From NCBI GenBank assembly GCA_001871075.1, contig MNUP01000089.1:1-5465 (forward strand): a stretch of 5,465 bases of DNA, given 5' to 3'. The position numbers and the translations under genes are program-made. Shown piece after piece: positions 3 through 4,886 of this stretch (position 1 is the first letter of the stretch; the number at the start of each line of letters is the position of its first letter). This stretch comes from Candidatus Desantisbacteria bacterium CG1_02_49_89. GTDB taxonomy: Bacteria > Desantisbacteria > UBA1551. A model generated the notes under the pieces. The model saw only the letters and a program-made list of their open reading frames with translations, was not told where the DNA came from and ran no database searches.

Positions 3-320
3 CTGCGTTCCCGCGCAATTGATAACGGCGTGTTCCTTGTGTCTGCCTGTTACGGCAAGCATCCTGATGAATCCTGGAAGCCGGGAATGATGCAGGGTAG
101 AACGGGTGTTGTGGGCCCTGACGGGATGATACTCGCGGAAGCAGGCAGGGAAGCAGGGATCGTTATGGCAACCGTGGACCTGAACCAGAAGCTATACAAG
201 GCGTATTTTACCACGAATTCGGAAAAGGACGATTTCAGGAAGGAAATGCTTGACGACCGCAGGCCGGAAACGTATAGGGCTATAACAAAAGTTAAAAAGG
301 TTAAAGGGGTTAAAAGTTAA
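3..320 (+). CDS. Carbon-nitrogen hydrolase (nitrilase superfamily), C-terminal part only
   Basis: This is the 3' end of a gene whose start lies left of the window; the frame is open from the first complete codon, so the GTG at 30 is internal and not a start. Nitrilase-superfamily enzymes cleave C-N bonds of amides, carbamoyl compounds or nitriles with a Glu-Lys-Cys triad in the cytoplasm. The triad is in the missing part. What is visible is the typical C-terminal half: RAIDNGVFLVSA (the 'RAxENxxxxxxxN' strand), then a GRTGVVGPDGMILAEAG segment matching the family's 'S.i.dPdG.vla.a' strand, GIVMATVDLN, and a tail with RRPETYR that is common in the family. The last nine residues (VKKVKGVKS) are lysine-rich and are encoded by an intergenic-type GTTAAA repeat, so they are probably not part of the ancestral fold. 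Substrate cannot be assigned. The family call is fairly secure, the specific enzyme unknown. Confidence 0.85.
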   Translation: MRSRAIDNGVFLVSACYGKHPDESWKPGMMQGRTGVVGPDGMILAEAGREAGIVMATVDLNQKLYKAYFTTNSEKDDFRKEMLDDRRPETYRAITKVKKVKGVKS

Positions 321-332
321 AAAGGTTAAAAA
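291..332 (+). repeat. GTTAAA tandem array spanning the stop codon of the nitrilase-like gene
   Basis: Five units begin at 291, 300, 309, 316 and 325, each G-TTAAA followed by A/G padding (for example GTTAAAAAG). The period is 9, 9, 7 and 9 bp. The first units are read as codons (Val-Lys-Lys, Val-Lys-Gly, Val-Lys-Ser), and the 7-bp unit shifts the phase so that TAA at 318-320 becomes the stop. The array then continues into the gap. This is seen directly. How it arose, by slippage or insertion, is inference. Confidence 0.85.
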
Positions 333-404
333 TTCGCAGAAATTCGTGAGAATTCGTGGTTAAATGGATTTGTATGTGGTTTTGTGGTAAGGTTCGTGGT
401 TTTC
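333..404 (+). repeat. AATTCGTGG-type leader repeat, copy A
   Basis: This block fills the rest of the gap before the first UroD-like gene. It opens with three degenerate units of about 10 bp (AATTCGCAG, AATTCGTGAG, AATTCGTGG), with TTCGTG at 343, 353 and again at 393. The stretch 351-388 matches 1742-1780, upstream of the second UroD-like gene, at about 34 of 38 positions with one gap. It runs directly into the ribosome binding site. Reading it as coding, as a GTG start at 384 would require, turns repeat sequence into protein and is not favoured. Confidence 0.8.
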
Positions 405-413
405 GGGGAAAAA
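405..413 (+). promoter_or_regulatory. Ribosome binding site that decides the start at 414
   Basis: A purine run (GGGGAAAAA) sits immediately before ATG 414, with its GGGGA core about four bases away. The alternative in-frame GTG at 384 has only TTCGTGG repeat sequence before it and no purine-rich site, so 414 is preferred. Confidence 0.65.
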
Positions 414-1622
414 ATGATAGCGAATGAAAACCTGATAACGGATGATATGAGGGCTAAGGCAAAAGAACTCGTTAAATTGGCGCGTGGCAATAACGGGCTT
501 GCCCCTGTTGACACCGGAAGGTTCTGGAATGACAACAACACAGCTTCCAGGGATCCGTTCGGCAAAGATATTCCTCAGATACCGCTGGGCATAGGCATGT
601 TGGATGAGTGCGTTTTCGCCGAACTCGGGATCAGCGCGGATTTCAAGCGATTGCTTGAAGACGAAGCGTGGGCGATCTCTTTGAAAAAAGCCTATAACGA
701 CAAGGCTGAAAAAATAGTGGGAAGGCGCCTGCTCAGCGGGAAGCCTGTTGATAAAACCAGGCAGTATCCTCCGGTGAAGGGCCTGCACGACGTTTTTGAG
801 GCGAAGAACGTGTGGAATTCCGGTTCATGGTGGCTTGAACAGTCGGTAAGGAACGAGAAAGAACTTGAAGAACTGCTTTGCCGTGTTGAAGAACGCAACA
901 AGGACCTGCGCACTTTTATCCTTCCGCCCGAATGGGAAAAGGAGAAGGAACGCCTGATGAAAGCCGGTATTAAACCGGCTATGTACAGGGGCCAGCGCGG
1001 GCCGATGACTTTTGCGGGTTCTGTTTACGGAATTGAAAACACGATATTCCTGATACTGGATAACCCGAAGCTCGCCGCAAGGTTCAGGGACGCTATCATC
1101 AACACGATGCTGAATATAGCGGGAGTGCTCGATAAAGAAGCCGGTTATTCGGAAACGGACGCGCCGAAAGGCTTTTCTTTTTGCGACGACAATTGCGCGA
1201 TGTTCAACCCGAAGATGTATGAGTTTTTCGGTTACCCGATACTGAAAGCGGTTTTTGAGCGGTACAGCCCTGGTCCCTCGGACTCGCGGTACCAGCATTC
1301 TGATTCAGATATGAGGCACCAGCTCCCCGCGCTTGGAAGATTAGGGTTGACCGGTGTAAATTTCGGGCCTACGCTCAGCGTTACCGAGATAAGGGAGCAC
1401 TGCCAGCGCGCTGTGATAGACGGGCAGCTCGCGCCATTTACGTTCTGCCGCAACGAAGAAGAGAATATTGTACTGGAATTACTGCGGGATTTCGAGCAGT
1501 CAAAAGAAAAGCGCGGTGTCCGTTTCGCGACAGCAGGTTCTGTTAATAACGGTTCTATGCTTACGGGGTTGCGCCTTGTAATGTCCGCGATACAGCGTTA
1601 CGGAAGATATCAGGTTGGATAA
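414..1622 (+). CDS. Uroporphyrinogen decarboxylase-fold (UroD/MtaA-like) protein, first of two
   Basis: A protein of 402 residues from ATG 414. The family (UroD, PF01208) contains haem-pathway decarboxylases and zinc methyltransferases such as MtaA that move methyl groups from corrinoid proteins. This one lacks recognisable haem-pathway signatures and belongs to the broad, mostly uncharacterised environmental branch. Supporting segments are RGPMTFAG, a DDNCAMFNPKMYEFFGYPIL block (the family's 'D...SP..y.ef..P' helix), and HSDSDM near residue 295 followed by NFGPTL near 316. These correspond to the family strand that carries the metal-binding His and the following (beta/alpha)8 strand. In MtaA that motif is His-x-Cys; here it is His-Ser-Asp, so a standard Cys-liganded zinc site is doubtful. 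The rather long N-terminal region (residues 1-180) was not matched to any domain. It is paired with a second UroD-like gene downstream. The fold is likely; the reaction is unknown. Confidence 0.78.
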   Translation: MIANENLITDDMRAKAKELVKLARGNNGLAPVDTGRFWNDNNTASRDPFGKDIPQIPLGIGMLDECVFAELGISADFKRLLEDEAWAISLKKAYNDKAEKIVGRRLLSGKPVDKTRQYPPVKGLHDVFEAKNVWNSGSWWLEQSVRNEKELEELLCRVEERNKDLRTFILPPEWEKEKERLMKAGIKPAMYRGQRGPMTFAGSVYGIENTIFLILDNPKLAARFRDAIINTMLNIAGVLDKEAGYSETDAPKGFSFCDDNCAMFNPKMYEFFGYPILKAVFERYSPGPSDSRYQHSDSDMRHQLPALGRLGLTGVNFGPTLSVTEIREHCQRAVIDGQLAPFTFCRNEEENIVLELLRDFEQSKEKRGVRFATAGSVNNGSMLTGLRLVMSAIQRYGRYQVG

Positions 1623-1639
1623 CTGGACGACTGGATAAT
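1616..1639 (+). repeat. TGGATAAC x3 array over the stop codon of the first UroD-like gene
   Basis: Three exact 8-bp steps are TGGATAAC, TGGACGAC and TGGATAAT. The TAA stop at 1620-1622 lies inside the first unit, so the last codons (Val-Gly-stop) are shared with the array. Seen directly in the sequence. Confidence 0.75.
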
Positions 1640-1652
1640 TAGCCAGATTAAT

Positions 1653-1670
1653 TCAGTGTCCTCAGTGGCA
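1653..1670 (+). repeat. TCAGTGTCC/TCAGTGGCA 9-bp pair
   Basis: Two 9-bp units share TCAGTG and sit between the stop-codon array and the GTTTACAA array. The GTG-rich style resembles the TTCGTG blocks found before the genes. With only two units this could be chance; it is listed because it fits the pattern of the gap. Confidence 0.45.
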
Positions 1671-1681
1671 GATTTTATATA

Positions 1682-1713
1682 GTTTACAAGCTTACAAGTC
1701 TATAAGTTTACAG
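1682..1713 (+). repeat. GTTTACAA 8-bp array, copy 1
   Basis: Four contiguous 8-bp units are GTTTACAA, GCTTACAA, GTCTATAA and GTTTACAG. The same motif family recurs in the next gap (2921-2955). In both places it lies shortly upstream of a TTCGTG block and the next gene. Confidence 0.82.
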
Positions 1714-1720
1714 GTAATTA

Positions 1721-1780
1721 TAATTCGTGGAAATTCGTGCAAATTCGTGGTTAAATGAGCTTGTCTGTGGTTTTAGTGGT
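1721..1780 (+). repeat. AATTCGTGG-type leader repeat, copy B
   Basis: Three perfectly spaced 10-bp units (TAATTCGTGG, AAATTCGTGC, AAATTCGTGG; TTCGTG at 1724, 1734 and 1744) are followed by a conserved tail, TTAAATG...CTTGTCTGTGG...GTGGT. The part from 1742 aligns with 351-388 before the first UroD-like gene. The 10-bp spacing puts each TTCGTG on about the same face of the helix. The end of the block supplies the weak GGTGGA ribosome binding site of the next gene. Confidence 0.83.
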
Positions 1781-1785
1781 GGAAA

Positions 1786-2847
1786 ATGACTTCACAGGAA
1801 CGCATAAAGATCGTATTGGGCGGAGGGGTGCCTGACAGGGTGCCGCTGTGCGAAACAGGTTTCTGGCCGCAGACGATCGAACGCTGGAAGAAGGAAGGCC
1901 TGCCTGAAGGCGACCCGCTGGACTATTTCAAGATGGACCACATATCCGGCATTTCGTATGACGGCACGTTCCGCCTGCCGGGCAAAGTGCTTGAAGAAAC
2001 TGCCGAATACAGGATCGAGACCGATGGTTACGGCAGGACATTCAAGGCATGGAAAAACGAGAACTACAGCCCGCCCCAGTATATGGATCACCTGTTTAAG
2101 GAAAGGGGCCAGTGGGAGGAATTAAAGAAGAAACTCACACCTTCCAAAGACAGGATACAGAAAGATCTGAAAGCCCAGTATGAGAACCTTCGTAAAAGGG
2201 GAGATTTCGTTTTTCTGAGCCCTGACGAGCCGTGCTGGTTTGTGCTTAACAGGACAATGGGCTTTGAGAACGGCCTTTCCAAAATGGTAGAAGAACCGGA
2301 TCTTATAAGGGACATAATAAACACGCACACTGATTTTATCCTTGAAATGTGCAATATTTTCCTGAGTGAAGGGATGAAGCCGGATGCGATCTGGCTATAT
2401 TCAGACCTGTGCTATAAGAACGGGATGCTTTTTTCGCCGAAGGTTTACAGGGACCTGGTGATGCCCGCGCATAAGAAGATAAAACAATTCTGCCTTGAAA
2501 ACAACCTATTCTGGATCTATCACTGCGACGGAAATATTAAGGAACTGCTCCCCCTGCTTATCGAGTCAGGCATCAACGCCATACAGCCGCTTGAGGCAAG
2601 GCAGGGTAATGATGTAAGGATTTATAAAAAGCAGTACAGTAATAAGGTTACGTTCTTCGGCAACATTTCGGCTGATGTCCTCAGCTTGGATAAGGAAAGA
2701 ATACGGGAAGAGGTGGAAAGCAAGGTTACAGCGGCTATGAAAGGCGGGGGGTACATATTCCATTCAGACCATTCCGTACCGCCGACTGTCAGCCTTGAGA
2801 ATTATAAGTATGCCGTGGAGCTGGCGAAAGATGTCGGGAAGTATTAG
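1786..2847 (+). CDS. Uroporphyrinogen decarboxylase-fold (UroD/MtaA-like) protein, second of two
   Basis: A protein of 353 residues, the usual length of UroD/MtaA-type proteins. The start is secure: an in-frame TAG at 1774-1776 leaves no other start nearby, and MTSQERIKIVLGG...PDRVPLCE is the standard family N-terminus. The ribosome site (GGTGGA) is only about two bases from ATG and is made from the repeat upstream. Further family segments are YKNGMLFSPKVYRDLVMP, WIYHCDGNIKELLPLLIESG (His246, Asp248), FFGNISADVL near 292, and the C-terminal FHSDHSVPP...SLENYKYAVELAK near 326. MtaA-type enzymes bind zinc with His-x-Cys plus a late Cys. Here the corresponding positions look like His-x-Asp and Asp/His, so metal use, if any, is different. 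No corrinoid protein gene is present. It may act with the UroD-like protein encoded just upstream, which shares its leader repeat. The exact reaction cannot be given. Confidence 0.9.
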   Translation: MTSQERIKIVLGGGVPDRVPLCETGFWPQTIERWKKEGLPEGDPLDYFKMDHISGISYDGTFRLPGKVLEETAEYRIETDGYGRTFKAWKNENYSPPQYMDHLFKERGQWEELKKKLTPSKDRIQKDLKAQYENLRKRGDFVFLSPDEPCWFVLNRTMGFENGLSKMVEEPDLIRDIINTHTDFILEMCNIFLSEGMKPDAIWLYSDLCYKNGMLFSPKVYRDLVMPAHKKIKQFCLENNLFWIYHCDGNIKELLPLLIESGINAIQPLEARQGNDVRIYKKQYSNKVTFFGNISADVLSLDKERIREEVESKVTAAMKGGGYIFHSDHSVPPTVSLENYKYAVELAKDVGKY

Positions 2848-2880
2848 AGTCAAAGATTCATAGAGTCATAGAGTCAGAGT
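2845..2880 (+). repeat. TAGAGTCA x4 array beginning at the stop codon of the second UroD-like gene
   Basis: Four exact 8-bp steps are TAGAGTCA, AAGATTCA, TAGAGTCA and TAGAGTCA, plus a trailing GAGT. The first three bases of the first unit are the TAG stop codon itself. The following 2881-2918 has no clear repeat apart from a minor GCAA/TTGC hairpin of four pairs. Confidence 0.83.
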
Positions 2881-2920
2881 AACTGCAAGGTTTTGCCGGA
2901 AGCTGAATACCATAAAGATA

Positions 2921-2956
2921 GTTTATAGAGTTTACATAGTTTACAAGTTTATAAAG
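2921..2956 (+). repeat. GTTTACAA-type array, copy 2
   Basis: Four units are GTTTATAGA, GTTTACATA, GTTTACAA and GTTTATAAA, with an 8-9 bp period. The motif is that of the 1682-1713 array, and the position is the same: after a stop-codon array and before a TTCGTG block. This shows that the two gaps share a modular order. Confidence 0.82.
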
Positions 2957-2963
2957 TAAAATA

Positions 2964-3017
2964 TTTCTCTGTGGTGTTCTTTCGTGACTTCGTGATACTT
3001 TCGTGTTTTCGTGGAAA
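2964..3017 (+). repeat. TTCGTG leader block, copy C
   Basis: TTCGTG occurs at 2981, 2989, 3000 and 3008 (spacing 8, 11, 8), preceded by CTCTGTGGTG and ending in TTCGTGGAAAA. It is related in style to the blocks at 333-404 and 1721-1780 but is not collinear with them. It keeps the downstream frame open back to a GTG at 2971, which is not the true start. Confidence 0.75.
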
Positions 3018-3021
3018 ATTT

Positions 3022-3026
3022 GGAGG
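3022..3026 (+). promoter_or_regulatory. Ribosome binding site that decides the start at 3031
   Basis: A perfect GGAGG lies four bases before ATG 3031. This, together with the Rossmann strand starting right after it, rules against the upstream in-frame GTG at 2971. Confidence 0.85.
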
Positions 3027-3030
3027 AACT

Positions 3031-3984
3031 ATGGATAAAGTAAAAGTTGCGCTGATCGGGGCAGGGGGTATGGCGAACGCGGTCCATTATCCCTCGCTGG
3101 CTGAATTTCCTGACGTGGAAATAACCGGGTTGTGCGACCTGGTTGAGGATAAGTTGAAGGCAACGGCGAAGGCATTCAAGATAGAAAAGACGTTCGCGGA
3201 CTACAGGAAGATGCTGGATGAGACAAAACCCCGGGCGGTTTATATCCTTATGCCGCCCCACCATCTTTTTGACATTGTCATACACTGCCTTAACCGGAAG
3301 CTGAACGTTTTTATAGAAAAGCCGCCCGGAGTTTACACGGGACAGACCGTAGAGATGGCAAACCTGGCCGAGAAGAACAAGTGCATTACGATGGTTGGGT
3401 TCCAGAGACGGTTTGCGCCTTTGAGCGTTGCGGCGAAGAAAAGGGTGGATGAAAGGGGAATGCTGCAGTGTTCCGCGATGTTCATTAAGAATTACACCGG
3501 CGGGCCGTATTATGACGGAGCGGTTGATATCCTGACGTCAGACGCGATACACGCGGTTGACAACCTGCGCTGGATGGGCGGCGAAGTAAAGAAGGTTTTC
3601 AGCGACGTGAAAAAGGTGGATTTTGACTACCACAACATGTTTAACGCGATGGTGCAGTTCGAGAACGGAAGCATCGGGTTCCTTATCGCGAACTGGAGGG
3701 CGGGAAAGCGCATATTCAGAGTTGAAATGCACGGGAGAGGTATTTCCGCTTTCGTTGAGCCGGAAGCGAGGTCCGTTATTTACAAGGACAGCAATGAAGA
3801 CGGCGAGATAACCGCCGCAAAAGATGCCGCTGGCAGCGCGGAGTTTTACAAAACAGCGGGTTTCTTCGCGGAAAACAGGCATTTTATTGACTGCGTTAAG
3901 GAAGGAAAGCAACCGGTTACGAATTTCTCCGACGCGGTCAAAACAATGGAGCTCTGCGATAAAATCTACAGATCGCAAATATAA
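3031..3984 (+). CDS. Gfo/Idh/MocA family NAD(P)-dependent oxidoreductase
   Basis: A protein of 317 residues from ATG 3031, a little shorter than many family members. These cytoplasmic enzymes oxidise or reduce sugars, inositols and sugar derivatives with NAD(P). The N-terminal Rossmann fold shows VALIGAGGMA (residues 6-15, a GxGGxA form of the nucleotide loop) and an acidic Asp36 at the end of strand 2, which usually favours NAD. The hallmark EKP is at 96-98, with Lys97 the expected catalytic residue. GFQRRF at 123-128 is the usual 'G.n.Rf' segment. DAIHAVDNLRWMGG (171-184) carries the His174 of the active-site 'D..H..D' motif. The C-terminal region fits the family's beta-sheet domain and ends in FIDCVKEGKQPVTNFSDAVKTMEL, the usual closing helix region. 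The substrate is unknown; neighbours suggest a modified sugar. Confidence in the family is very high. Confidence 0.95.
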   Translation: MDKVKVALIGAGGMANAVHYPSLAEFPDVEITGLCDLVEDKLKATAKAFKIEKTFADYRKMLDETKPRAVYILMPPHHLFDIVIHCLNRKLNVFIEKPPGVYTGQTVEMANLAEKNKCITMVGFQRRFAPLSVAAKKRVDERGMLQCSAMFIKNYTGGPYYDGAVDILTSDAIHAVDNLRWMGGEVKKVFSDVKKVDFDYHNMFNAMVQFENGSIGFLIANWRAGKRIFRVEMHGRGISAFVEPEARSVIYKDSNEDGEITAAKDAAGSAEFYKTAGFFAENRHFIDCVKEGKQPVTNFSDAVKTMELCDKIYRSQI

Positions 3985-3986
3985 AT

Positions 3987-4021
3987 GCGTGTCAGCGTAT
4001 CAACGTATCAGCGTGTCAGAG
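3987..4021 (+). repeat. GCGTGTCA x4 array, left arm of an inverted array pair
   Basis: Two bases after the TAA stop come four 8-bp units, GCGTGTCA, GCGTATCA, ACGTATCA and GCGTGTCA, and a trailing GAG. They are near-complementary to the array at 4064-4097. The segment 3996-4006 pairs perfectly (11 bp) with 4087-4097, and the pairing extends to 26 positions with three mismatches and two G-U pairs. Confidence 0.87.
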
Positions 4022-4030
4022 CAAATGCAA

Positions 4031-4045
4031 GGAATAGTTTATTCC
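4031..4045 (+). other. Perfect small hairpin in the loop of the inverted array pair
   Basis: GGAATA and TATTCC form six pairs around a GTT loop. It is nested in an outer CAAGGA (4028-4033)/TCCTTG (4052-4057) complement, with which it competes in part. No T-run follows, so it is not called a terminator. Confidence 0.6.
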
Positions 4046-4063
4046 AATAAATCCTTGTTGTTG

Positions 4064-4097
4064 CGTTGACACGTTGACACTTTGACACGTTGATACG
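4064..4097 (+). repeat. CGTTGACA x4 array, right arm of an inverted array pair
   Basis: Four 8-bp units are CGTTGACA, CGTTGACA, CTTTGACA and CGTTGATA, then CG. They are the reverse-complement family of 3987-4021. The array ends just before the ribosome binding site of the PIG-L gene. The repeated TTGACA looks like a -35 box but arises from the unit itself. Confidence 0.87.
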
Positions 4098-4104
4098 TAT
4101 TTAC

Positions 4105-4110
4105 GGGAGG
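4105..4110 (+). promoter_or_regulatory. Ribosome binding site of the PIG-L gene
   Basis: GGGAGG lies four bases before ATG 4115. It is strong and well placed, and it lies outside the repeat array. Confidence 0.85.
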
Positions 4111-4114
4111 CAGC

Positions 4115-4795
4115 ATGCTTACTTGGAAGAAAGTGCTCGTGTTCGGGGCGCATAGCGACGATGAGATAATAGGGCCGGGCGGGACCATAGCGAAACTGAG
4201 CAGGCAGGGGGCTGCGGTCACTGTTGTGACCTTCACCACAGGGGATATGGGTTATTCAAAACTTTCGCATAAGGGCAGGATTGGCAGGATCCGCAGTATC
4301 GAGGCAAAAAGATCGGCAAAGATCCTCGGCATCAGGCAGGTCGTGAACCTCGGGCTTCCCACTCAGTCAGTAGTAAACGTCAGGGAGGTGTACCAGGAAT
4401 GCGTGCGCCTGATACGCAGGTTCAGGCCGGACGTGATATTCACGCATTACAAATGCGATAAGCACAGGGACCACAGAGCTGTAAGCGAGATAACGGACGA
4501 GGCAAGGTGGAAGGCAAGCGAGAATATCATGCCGGATTTCGGCAAGCCCTGGTACACGCAGGAGTTTTATTTCTACGAAGTCCTTGAGCTGTTCACGTCG
4601 CCTTCGGTCCTGGTTGATATAACCGGGACGCTTAACGCGAAGGTCAGGGCGATGAAGACGCAGGCCAGCCAGATGAGTAACCTGCGGGGCATGGAAAGGT
4701 ATATTGAGGGGGTCGCGGCAGCGCGGGGGTTCCTGCGCGGCACGAAATACGCGGAAGCCTTCTTAGCTTCTAATTTCCTTCCCAGGAAATTATAA
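4115..4795 (+). CDS. PIG-L/LmbE family zinc-dependent deacetylase
   Basis: A complete protein of 226 residues, typical for the family. PIG-L enzymes remove N-acetyl groups from amino sugars and their conjugates (GlcNAc-PI, the mycothiol precursor, bacillithiol-type precursors) using one zinc ion. The first motif is AHSDDE at residues 12-17, where most members have AHPDDE. By comparison with MshB, His13 and Asp16 are zinc ligands and Asp15 is the general base. GPGGTIAKL follows at 21-28. R-S-I-E at 60-63 is the conserved 'RxxE' before AKILGI. DKHRDH at 115-120 is the second motif, giving His120 as the third zinc ligand and His117 as the likely catalytic partner. No signal peptide is seen, so it acts in the cytoplasm. 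Its neighbours (sugar-type dehydrogenase, SGNH esterase) fit removal of acetyl groups from a glycan-derived compound. The substrate is not determined. Confidence 0.94.
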   Translation: MLTWKKVLVFGAHSDDEIIGPGGTIAKLSRQGAAVTVVTFTTGDMGYSKLSHKGRIGRIRSIEAKRSAKILGIRQVVNLGLPTQSVVNVREVYQECVRLIRRFRPDVIFTHYKCDKHRDHRAVSEITDEARWKASENIMPDFGKPWYTQEFYFYEVLELFTSPSVLVDITGTLNAKVRAMKTQASQMSNLRGMERYIEGVAAARGFLRGTKYAEAFLASNFLPRKL

Positions 4796-4798
4796 GCT

Positions 4799-4829
4799 GC
4801 TTATGGCTTATCGCATATCGCGTATCGTT
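4799..4829 (+). repeat. 7-bp array GCTTATC x4, left arm of an inverted array pair
   Basis: Four 7-bp units are GCTTATG, GCTTATC, GCATATC and GCGTATC, beginning three bases after the stop codon. TATCGTT at 4823-4829 pairs perfectly with AACGATA at 4840-4846 around a ten-base loop. Other registers also pair, for example 4819-4827 with 4863-4871 (nine of nine). Confidence 0.85.
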
Positions 4830-4841
4830 TGAAGCTTTTAA

Positions 4842-4871
4842 CGATAAGCGATTAGCGATGTGCGATACGCG
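4842..4871 (+). repeat. 7-bp array CGATAAG x4, right arm of an inverted array pair
   Basis: Four 7-bp units are CGATAAG, CGATTAG, CGATGTG and CGATACG, then CG. They are the reverse complement of the unit family in 4799-4829. The array stops just before the AAGGAG ribosome binding site. The period here is 7 bp, against 8 bp in the preceding gap. Confidence 0.85.
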
Positions 4872-4875
4872 TTTT

Positions 4876-4881
4876 AAGGAG
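4876..4881 (+). promoter_or_regulatory. Ribosome binding site of the SGNH hydrolase gene
   Basis: AAGGAG ends five bases before ATG 4887. It supports that start, which also fits the family N-terminus. Confidence 0.85.
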
Positions 4882-4886
4882 TTGAC

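Follow-up and report, generated by a model that had tools for sequence, protein, structure and literature searches.

The 5,465-nucleotide stretch analysed here (the window) is an entire contig (C43) from the 2.48 Mb draft genome of Candidatus Desantisbacteria bacterium CG1_02_49_89, and its genes are separated by five gaps that hold short tandem arrays of period 7 to 10 bp. The locus raises the question of what makes or keeps such arrays. A preliminary description had reported them in all five gaps, and there they are (5/5); the observed score was reached by 0 of 1000 dinucleotide shuffles per gap. On balance, the arrays are probably the fixed-count tips of dispersed, palindrome-like intergenic elements that are spread by copying and kept by recognition at the DNA level.

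The format extends over the genome. The sample comprised sixty stretches with a total of 785 kb (31% of the genome), and its first 0.5 Mb (286 gaps) served for an array census; genes were called with a home-made dicodon caller, and gap borders are approximate. Arrays of period 6 to 11 were present in 130 of 286 gaps, compared with 0.3 expected from shuffling and 3 of 286 matched coding pieces. The genome-wide excess that the preliminary description anticipated is thus present: arrays are neither confined to this locus nor equalled in shuffled gaps, and the pattern is more pronounced than first described. Period 7 was the commonest (85 of 172 arrays) and periods 8 (40), 9 (25) and 10 (22) were frequent too, with almost nothing at 4 to 6 or 11 to 13. 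As in known bacterial intergenic heptamer repeats, these short-period arrays lie mainly between genes and recur across the genome. The full sample yielded 381 arrays, 293 wholly intergenic, 17 over a stop codon and 62 within called open reading frames (ORFs); some of these ORFs may have been called in error. Array density was 38 per 100 kb, against 1.6 per 100 kb in 80 loci of other organisms. The elements are absent from a genome of the same order (G001), which had 3 arrays in 166 kb; the median co-directional gap is 124 here and 24 in that genome.

A limited vocabulary of words, in more than a dozen families, recurs genome-wide. Exact triples (counts take in overlapping matches) numbered 135 for CGTRTCAR, 99 for AGTTTAYAN, 96 for ARTTATG and 47 for AATYCGTGNN, so that the earlier impression of a private motif for each gap does not hold. 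Within units one or two positions vary freely and most others are 95 to 100% constant; most positions of CGTRTCAR are at least 98% conserved alongside the free ones. The families were picked after seeing the data of this single draft genome, and element copies are related, so that unit-level tests are not independent.

Unit number is quantised by word. When runs of at least two units were counted, one mismatch allowed, CGTRTCAR gave 41 runs of two (39 expected by shuffle), 5 of three, 47 of four and 3 of five; 47 of the 55 runs with three or more units therefore had four. AATYCGTGNN had three units in 39 of 40 runs (the other had four), CACRGAGN in 26 of 26, with none longer, and ARTTATG had 29 runs of four and 10 of three, with none longer. 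The number is four for the main 7- and 8-mers, mostly four for 9-mers, and three for 10-mers and CACRGAGN. Arrays of three to five units, as first described, do occur, but the number is fixed by the word. G-quadruplexes are not the general reason for four units because CGTRTCAR, ARTTATG and ATGNACG peak at four although they lack a G-tract. What fixes the copy number appears to be a process of copying or recognition and not accidental stuttering.

The arrays form the ends of larger units. Within a family the inner flanks are conserved and the outer flanks unrelated, and hence the edge of the array is the edge of an element. The ARTTATG element occurs at 36 or more places (pattern search of the whole genome). 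Nine copies were aligned; most are about 104 bp long (98 to 105), with 4+4 tip units and 43 to 49 bp spacing, a mean identity of 82% and a usual position a few bases past a stop codon, ahead of the next gene. A core, CAAGGAAT...ATCCTTG, is common to elements tipped with ARTTATG (period 7) and CGTRTCAR (period 8). In co-directional gaps all 11 of the CAACGTGT-type arrays lay in the 5' half, and all 8 arrays of the complementary sequence lay in the 3' half. Inverted complementarity between gap halves reached the threshold in 41 gaps, compared with 10.9 when partners were swapped. Mosaic gaps join two halves with tips of different word families. Two gaps about 3 kb apart (L013:2407-2654 and L013:5659-5940), which flank two genes, match at 90% identity along 224 bp when one of them is inverted; several different arrays lie within the matching part, and the AGTTTACA array differs in unit number. 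Terminal inverted repeats, short length and dispersal match features of MITEs. The preliminary description had found the arrays unlike a single dispersed repeat; they are, however, the outer ends of inverted elements that are themselves dispersed and have cores in common. Its observation that a format is kept was sound: period 7 to 10, three or four units and inward-facing tips recur across over a dozen word families.

Other repeats share these gaps. REP-like hairpins are nested within arrays and cores, and GC-rich ones (CCGCCC...GGGCGG) lie within CGTGTCA arrays at L009:5610-5716, L018:19445-19683 and L021:3667-3881, apparently as later insertions. A further inverted family, GATTACAGTGATT ... 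AATCACCGTAATCA, with words doubled at each end, fills many gaps (L020:2916-3056, L009:4533-4652 and others).

Words and format recur in other phyla. AATYCGTGNN triples with varied free bases were found in all three genomes examined of another phylum (3/3), in which the reversed pattern was unmatched. CACRGAGN triples occurred in 15 of 290 genomes, several with exactly three units, though some of these genomes match the reversed control too and some carry longer perfect runs. One genome of another family, probably of another phylum (G203), had 113 CACRGAGN triple matches (57+56 by strand), and its paired inverted tips enclose a core different from that of the source genome. At one of its loci (L306), three units, a palindromic core (AACTGCAAC...GTTGCAGTT) and three inverted units come directly after a stop codon. 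ARTTATG triples were seen once each in three other genomes; in one of these the triple lies next to an array of four CAATTGA units and a AATCCGTG run. No other of 191 genomes had CGTRTCAR or AGTTTAYAN triples.

In the explanation favoured here, each half of an element has a tip, made up of degenerate 7 to 10 bp words in a set number, and an inner half-core; two halves, of the same or different word families, lie opposite one another on either side of an AT-rich centre. Copies of such elements, probably made by transposition or recombination, have entered the short gaps of co-directional genes, where insertion would be tolerated, and account for a large share of the intergenic DNA today. The words and their number would be kept by a protein, mobilising or binding, that recognises three or four units per tip. 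A modular nucleic-acid binder, as suggested in the preliminary description, or a repeat-reading activity may be at work; no candidate protein for this role was found.

Several observations weigh against this explanation. No mobilising gene was found, nor any transposase with array ends in the 31% of the genome read. Eight flanks of Y1 transposase genes carried hairpins or short end tags and no tandem array. Inspection by eye of 24 same-family pairs revealed no consistent target-site duplication, and in the relatives compared, all of the same order, a filled and an empty orthologous site were never seen side by side. Many arrays are solitary or paired with the tip of another family, and so not every array is the tip of an intact element. 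Adjacent units of AGTTRAA and of a mixed ACGTNNG set are similar, as slippage predicts, and slippage or local conversion may act in those families. Words shared across phyla could also be partly convergent.

Arrays might alternatively be immobile sites, selected gap by gap, to which one or more DNA-binding proteins (regulators or nucleoid proteins) attach. The mixture of conserved and free word positions, the fixed number of sites and their strand-symmetric placement fit such sites. However, dozens of words would demand dozens of proteins, the window genes behind the arrays look functionally unrelated, and whole elements have clearly been copied; we regard this alternative as unlikely.

Local replication slippage in unconstrained gaps, with the 7 to 10 bp period as a polymerase footprint, would account for the tandem format, the intergenic bias and the similar neighbours in some families. 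The excess of bacterial heptamers has been attributed to slippage (PMC4692102), and long perfect runs occur in three other genomes (G268, G190 and G098). Slippage is nevertheless contradicted for the main families because unit number is quantised at three or four and neighbours are no more, and often less, alike than chance. At the free position, neighbouring units were less alike than units of different arrays for AGTTTAYAN (0.10 vs 0.28) and TCAAGTR (0.16 vs 0.35), and this persisted under a control keeping unit order. The corresponding unlikeness in CGTRTCAR and AATYCGTGNN disappeared under that control, and at position 4 of AATYCGTGNN likeness within arrays was above chance. Furthermore, distant loci have words in common together with conserved inner flanks. 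The main families thus lack the broad spread of unit number and the alike neighbours of microsatellites, AGTTRAA being partly slippage-like. Slippage as the general origin, one of the options of the preliminary description, is improbable; it may act in AGTTRAA and the mixed ACGTNNG set, which are locally homogeneous.

A function as RNA hairpins (terminators or mRNA stabilizers), selected on the transcript, was suggested by gaps 4 and 5 of the window, which fold strongly and better on the sense strand (-59.5 vs -46.4 and -38.3 vs -26.2, respectively). These folds are not a rule since paired arms show no preference for the sense strand: 39 paired-arm gaps had 66 G-U and 72 A-C mismatches, and the sense strand folded better in 18 of 38 and worse in 20. 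Mirrored units of ARTTATG elements show no agreement at the free base and do not covary, and just 10 of 30 two-array gaps reach the complementarity threshold. The window had no terminator-like excess. There is thus no sign of an RNA-pairing constraint, and selection for hairpins is very doubtful.

Mobilization of REPIN-like elements by RAYT (Y1) transposases would be in keeping with the 10 Y1 matches in the source genome and with the many REP-like hairpins, some of them nested in arrays or cores. The Y1 genes are present, but none of the eight flanks has an array, and by inspection the arrays contain no GTAG/CGTC-tagged hairpin and the cores lack the tag. RAYT mobilization was rejected on these grounds, and we give it little credence. 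At one locus (L295, contig C23) a Y1 transposase gene lies between GTAACTCAAACCTTCAGGTTTGA-type hairpins and is the likely mobilizer of that REP family. Phage origin (a CGTRTCAR triple in only one viral contig), plasmid origin (one weak match only) and integron cassettes (the order of the second URO-D and Gfo/Idh genes is conserved in a Desantisbacteria relative) were dismissed. The sole viral match is a 4.6 kb contig (L167, IMGVR_UViG_3300031730_000087) with GCGTGTCA arrays and an inverted TGACACG array.

The window itself encodes the end of a CN-hydrolase, two URO-D-family proteins, a Gfo/Idh oxidoreductase, a PIG-L deacetylase and a GDSL lipase; its arrays are listed in Table 1. The Gfo/Idh protein is 76% identical to its nearest named relative, from Candidatus Desantisbacteria CG1_02_38_46. 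A Desantisbacteria relative has the second URO-D gene and the Gfo/Idh gene in the same order, separated by one gene, and the gene cluster therefore looks vertical. Rfam and tRNA scans gave no match.

Table 1. Arrays and palindromic core in the five gaps of the window
Feature	Gap	Position	Strand	Description
(G)GTTAAAA-type array	1	291..331	+	4-5 units; overlaps stop codon (318-320) of upstream CN-hydrolase ORF
AATYCGTGNN-type array	1	331..360	+	AATTCGNNNN x3; units AATTCGCAGA AATTCGTGAG AATTCGTGGT
TGGATAAC array	2	1616..1639	+	3 units; stop codon of first URO-D gene (1620-1622) inside
GTTTACAAG array	2	1682..1714	+	4 diverged units, AGTTTAYAN family
AATYCGTGNN array	2	1722..1751	+	AATTCGTGNN, exactly 3 units, then TAAAT
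TAGAGTCA array	3	2845..2876	+	4 units; opening three bases (2845-2847) are the second URO-D stop codon
AGTTTAYAN array	3	2920..2957	+	4 units, then AGTAAAATATTT half-core common to other copies
CGTRTCAR array	4	3988..4019	+	Exactly 4 units; 5' tip of inverted element
Palindromic core GAGCAAATGCAAGGAAT...AAATCCTTGTTGTTGC	4	4020..4065	.	Also in elements tipped with another word family
CGTRTCAR array, inverted	4	4066..4097	-	4 units; 3' tip of the element with the 5' tip at 3988..4019
GCNTATC array	5	4799..4826	+	4 units; 5' tip
CGATNNG array, inverted	5	4842..4869	-	4 units; 3' tip

Three consecutive genes end within arrays (gaps 1 to 3), so that arrays supply gene ends. The placement between stop codon and ribosome site given in the preliminary description is correct in outline, except that arrays in these gaps cover the upstream stop codon. 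Gap 1 (290-383) and gap 2 (1681-1774) are 71% alike over 94 nt; their common right part is AATTCGTG x3 GTTAAATG, and their left-hand arrays come from different families. The AATYCGTGNN-type array of gap 1 is followed by TAAAT, likewise in other genome copies. That of gap 2 is one of the 47 exact triples of a word also present in a second phylum.

Cyanobacterial STRR heptamers comprise several families of intergenic 7-mers; we know of no description of fixed unit number or paired tips among them. The closest known repeats are the heptamers GGGAATC/GGGANTN of Xanthomonas and GGGGA(C/T)T of Nostoc, which are intergenic, degenerate and of unknown function (PMC4692102). GGGAATC-type repeats most often have four units, form 70 to 75 convergent inverted pairs per genome, lie near the upstream stop codon and are rare between divergent genes; runs reach 26 units, and the authors tied four units to G-quadruplexes (PMC4692102). 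The arrays described here share with the Xanthomonas repeats an intergenic setting near the upstream stop codon, rarity between divergent genes, four as the modal unit number, degeneracy at certain positions and inverted pairs that converge. Xanthomonas and Nostoc, however, have one G-rich word per genome, whereas here there are dozens of words, periods of 7 to 10 and mosaic halves. Direct repeats of the heptamer TAACTGA, found between genes in Beggiatoaceae, Cyanobacteria and Bacteroidetes, come in sets of 2 to 6 copies in the main genome and are distributed patchily over phyla (PMC4679880). They are alike in position and patchy spread, but consist of a single word, mostly forward just ahead of start codons, and have not been reported as tips of inverted elements. 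REP, REPIN and BIME sequences (PMC2817692, PMC3116915) are likewise dispersed intergenic mosaics of inverted modules; their modules are single hairpins instead of arrays, and the link to a mobilizer was sought here and not found. MITEs are short, inverted, dispersed and non-coding, like the elements described here. The latter differ in having arrays as terminal repeats, and neither a target duplication nor a parent transposon was seen for them. A search of the literature for the array words as sequence strings gave no match.

Bacterial heptamer repeats have been noted for decades without an agreed origin. A tentative possibility, which we hold to be rather unlikely as yet, is that a class of elements crosses phyla with a shared degenerate vocabulary of 7 to 10 bp words, each read at a fixed count of three or four by a cognate family of DNA-binding or mobilizing proteins yet to be recognized; the heptamers of Xanthomonas, cyanobacteria and Beggiatoaceae would then be single-word members. 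With so many word families coexisting in a single genome, format can be told apart from sequence: the word changes while the unit number and inverted arrangement stay. This speaks against slippage and against explaining the four units by G-quadruplexes. The question of what reads or copies the arrays thereby becomes testable.

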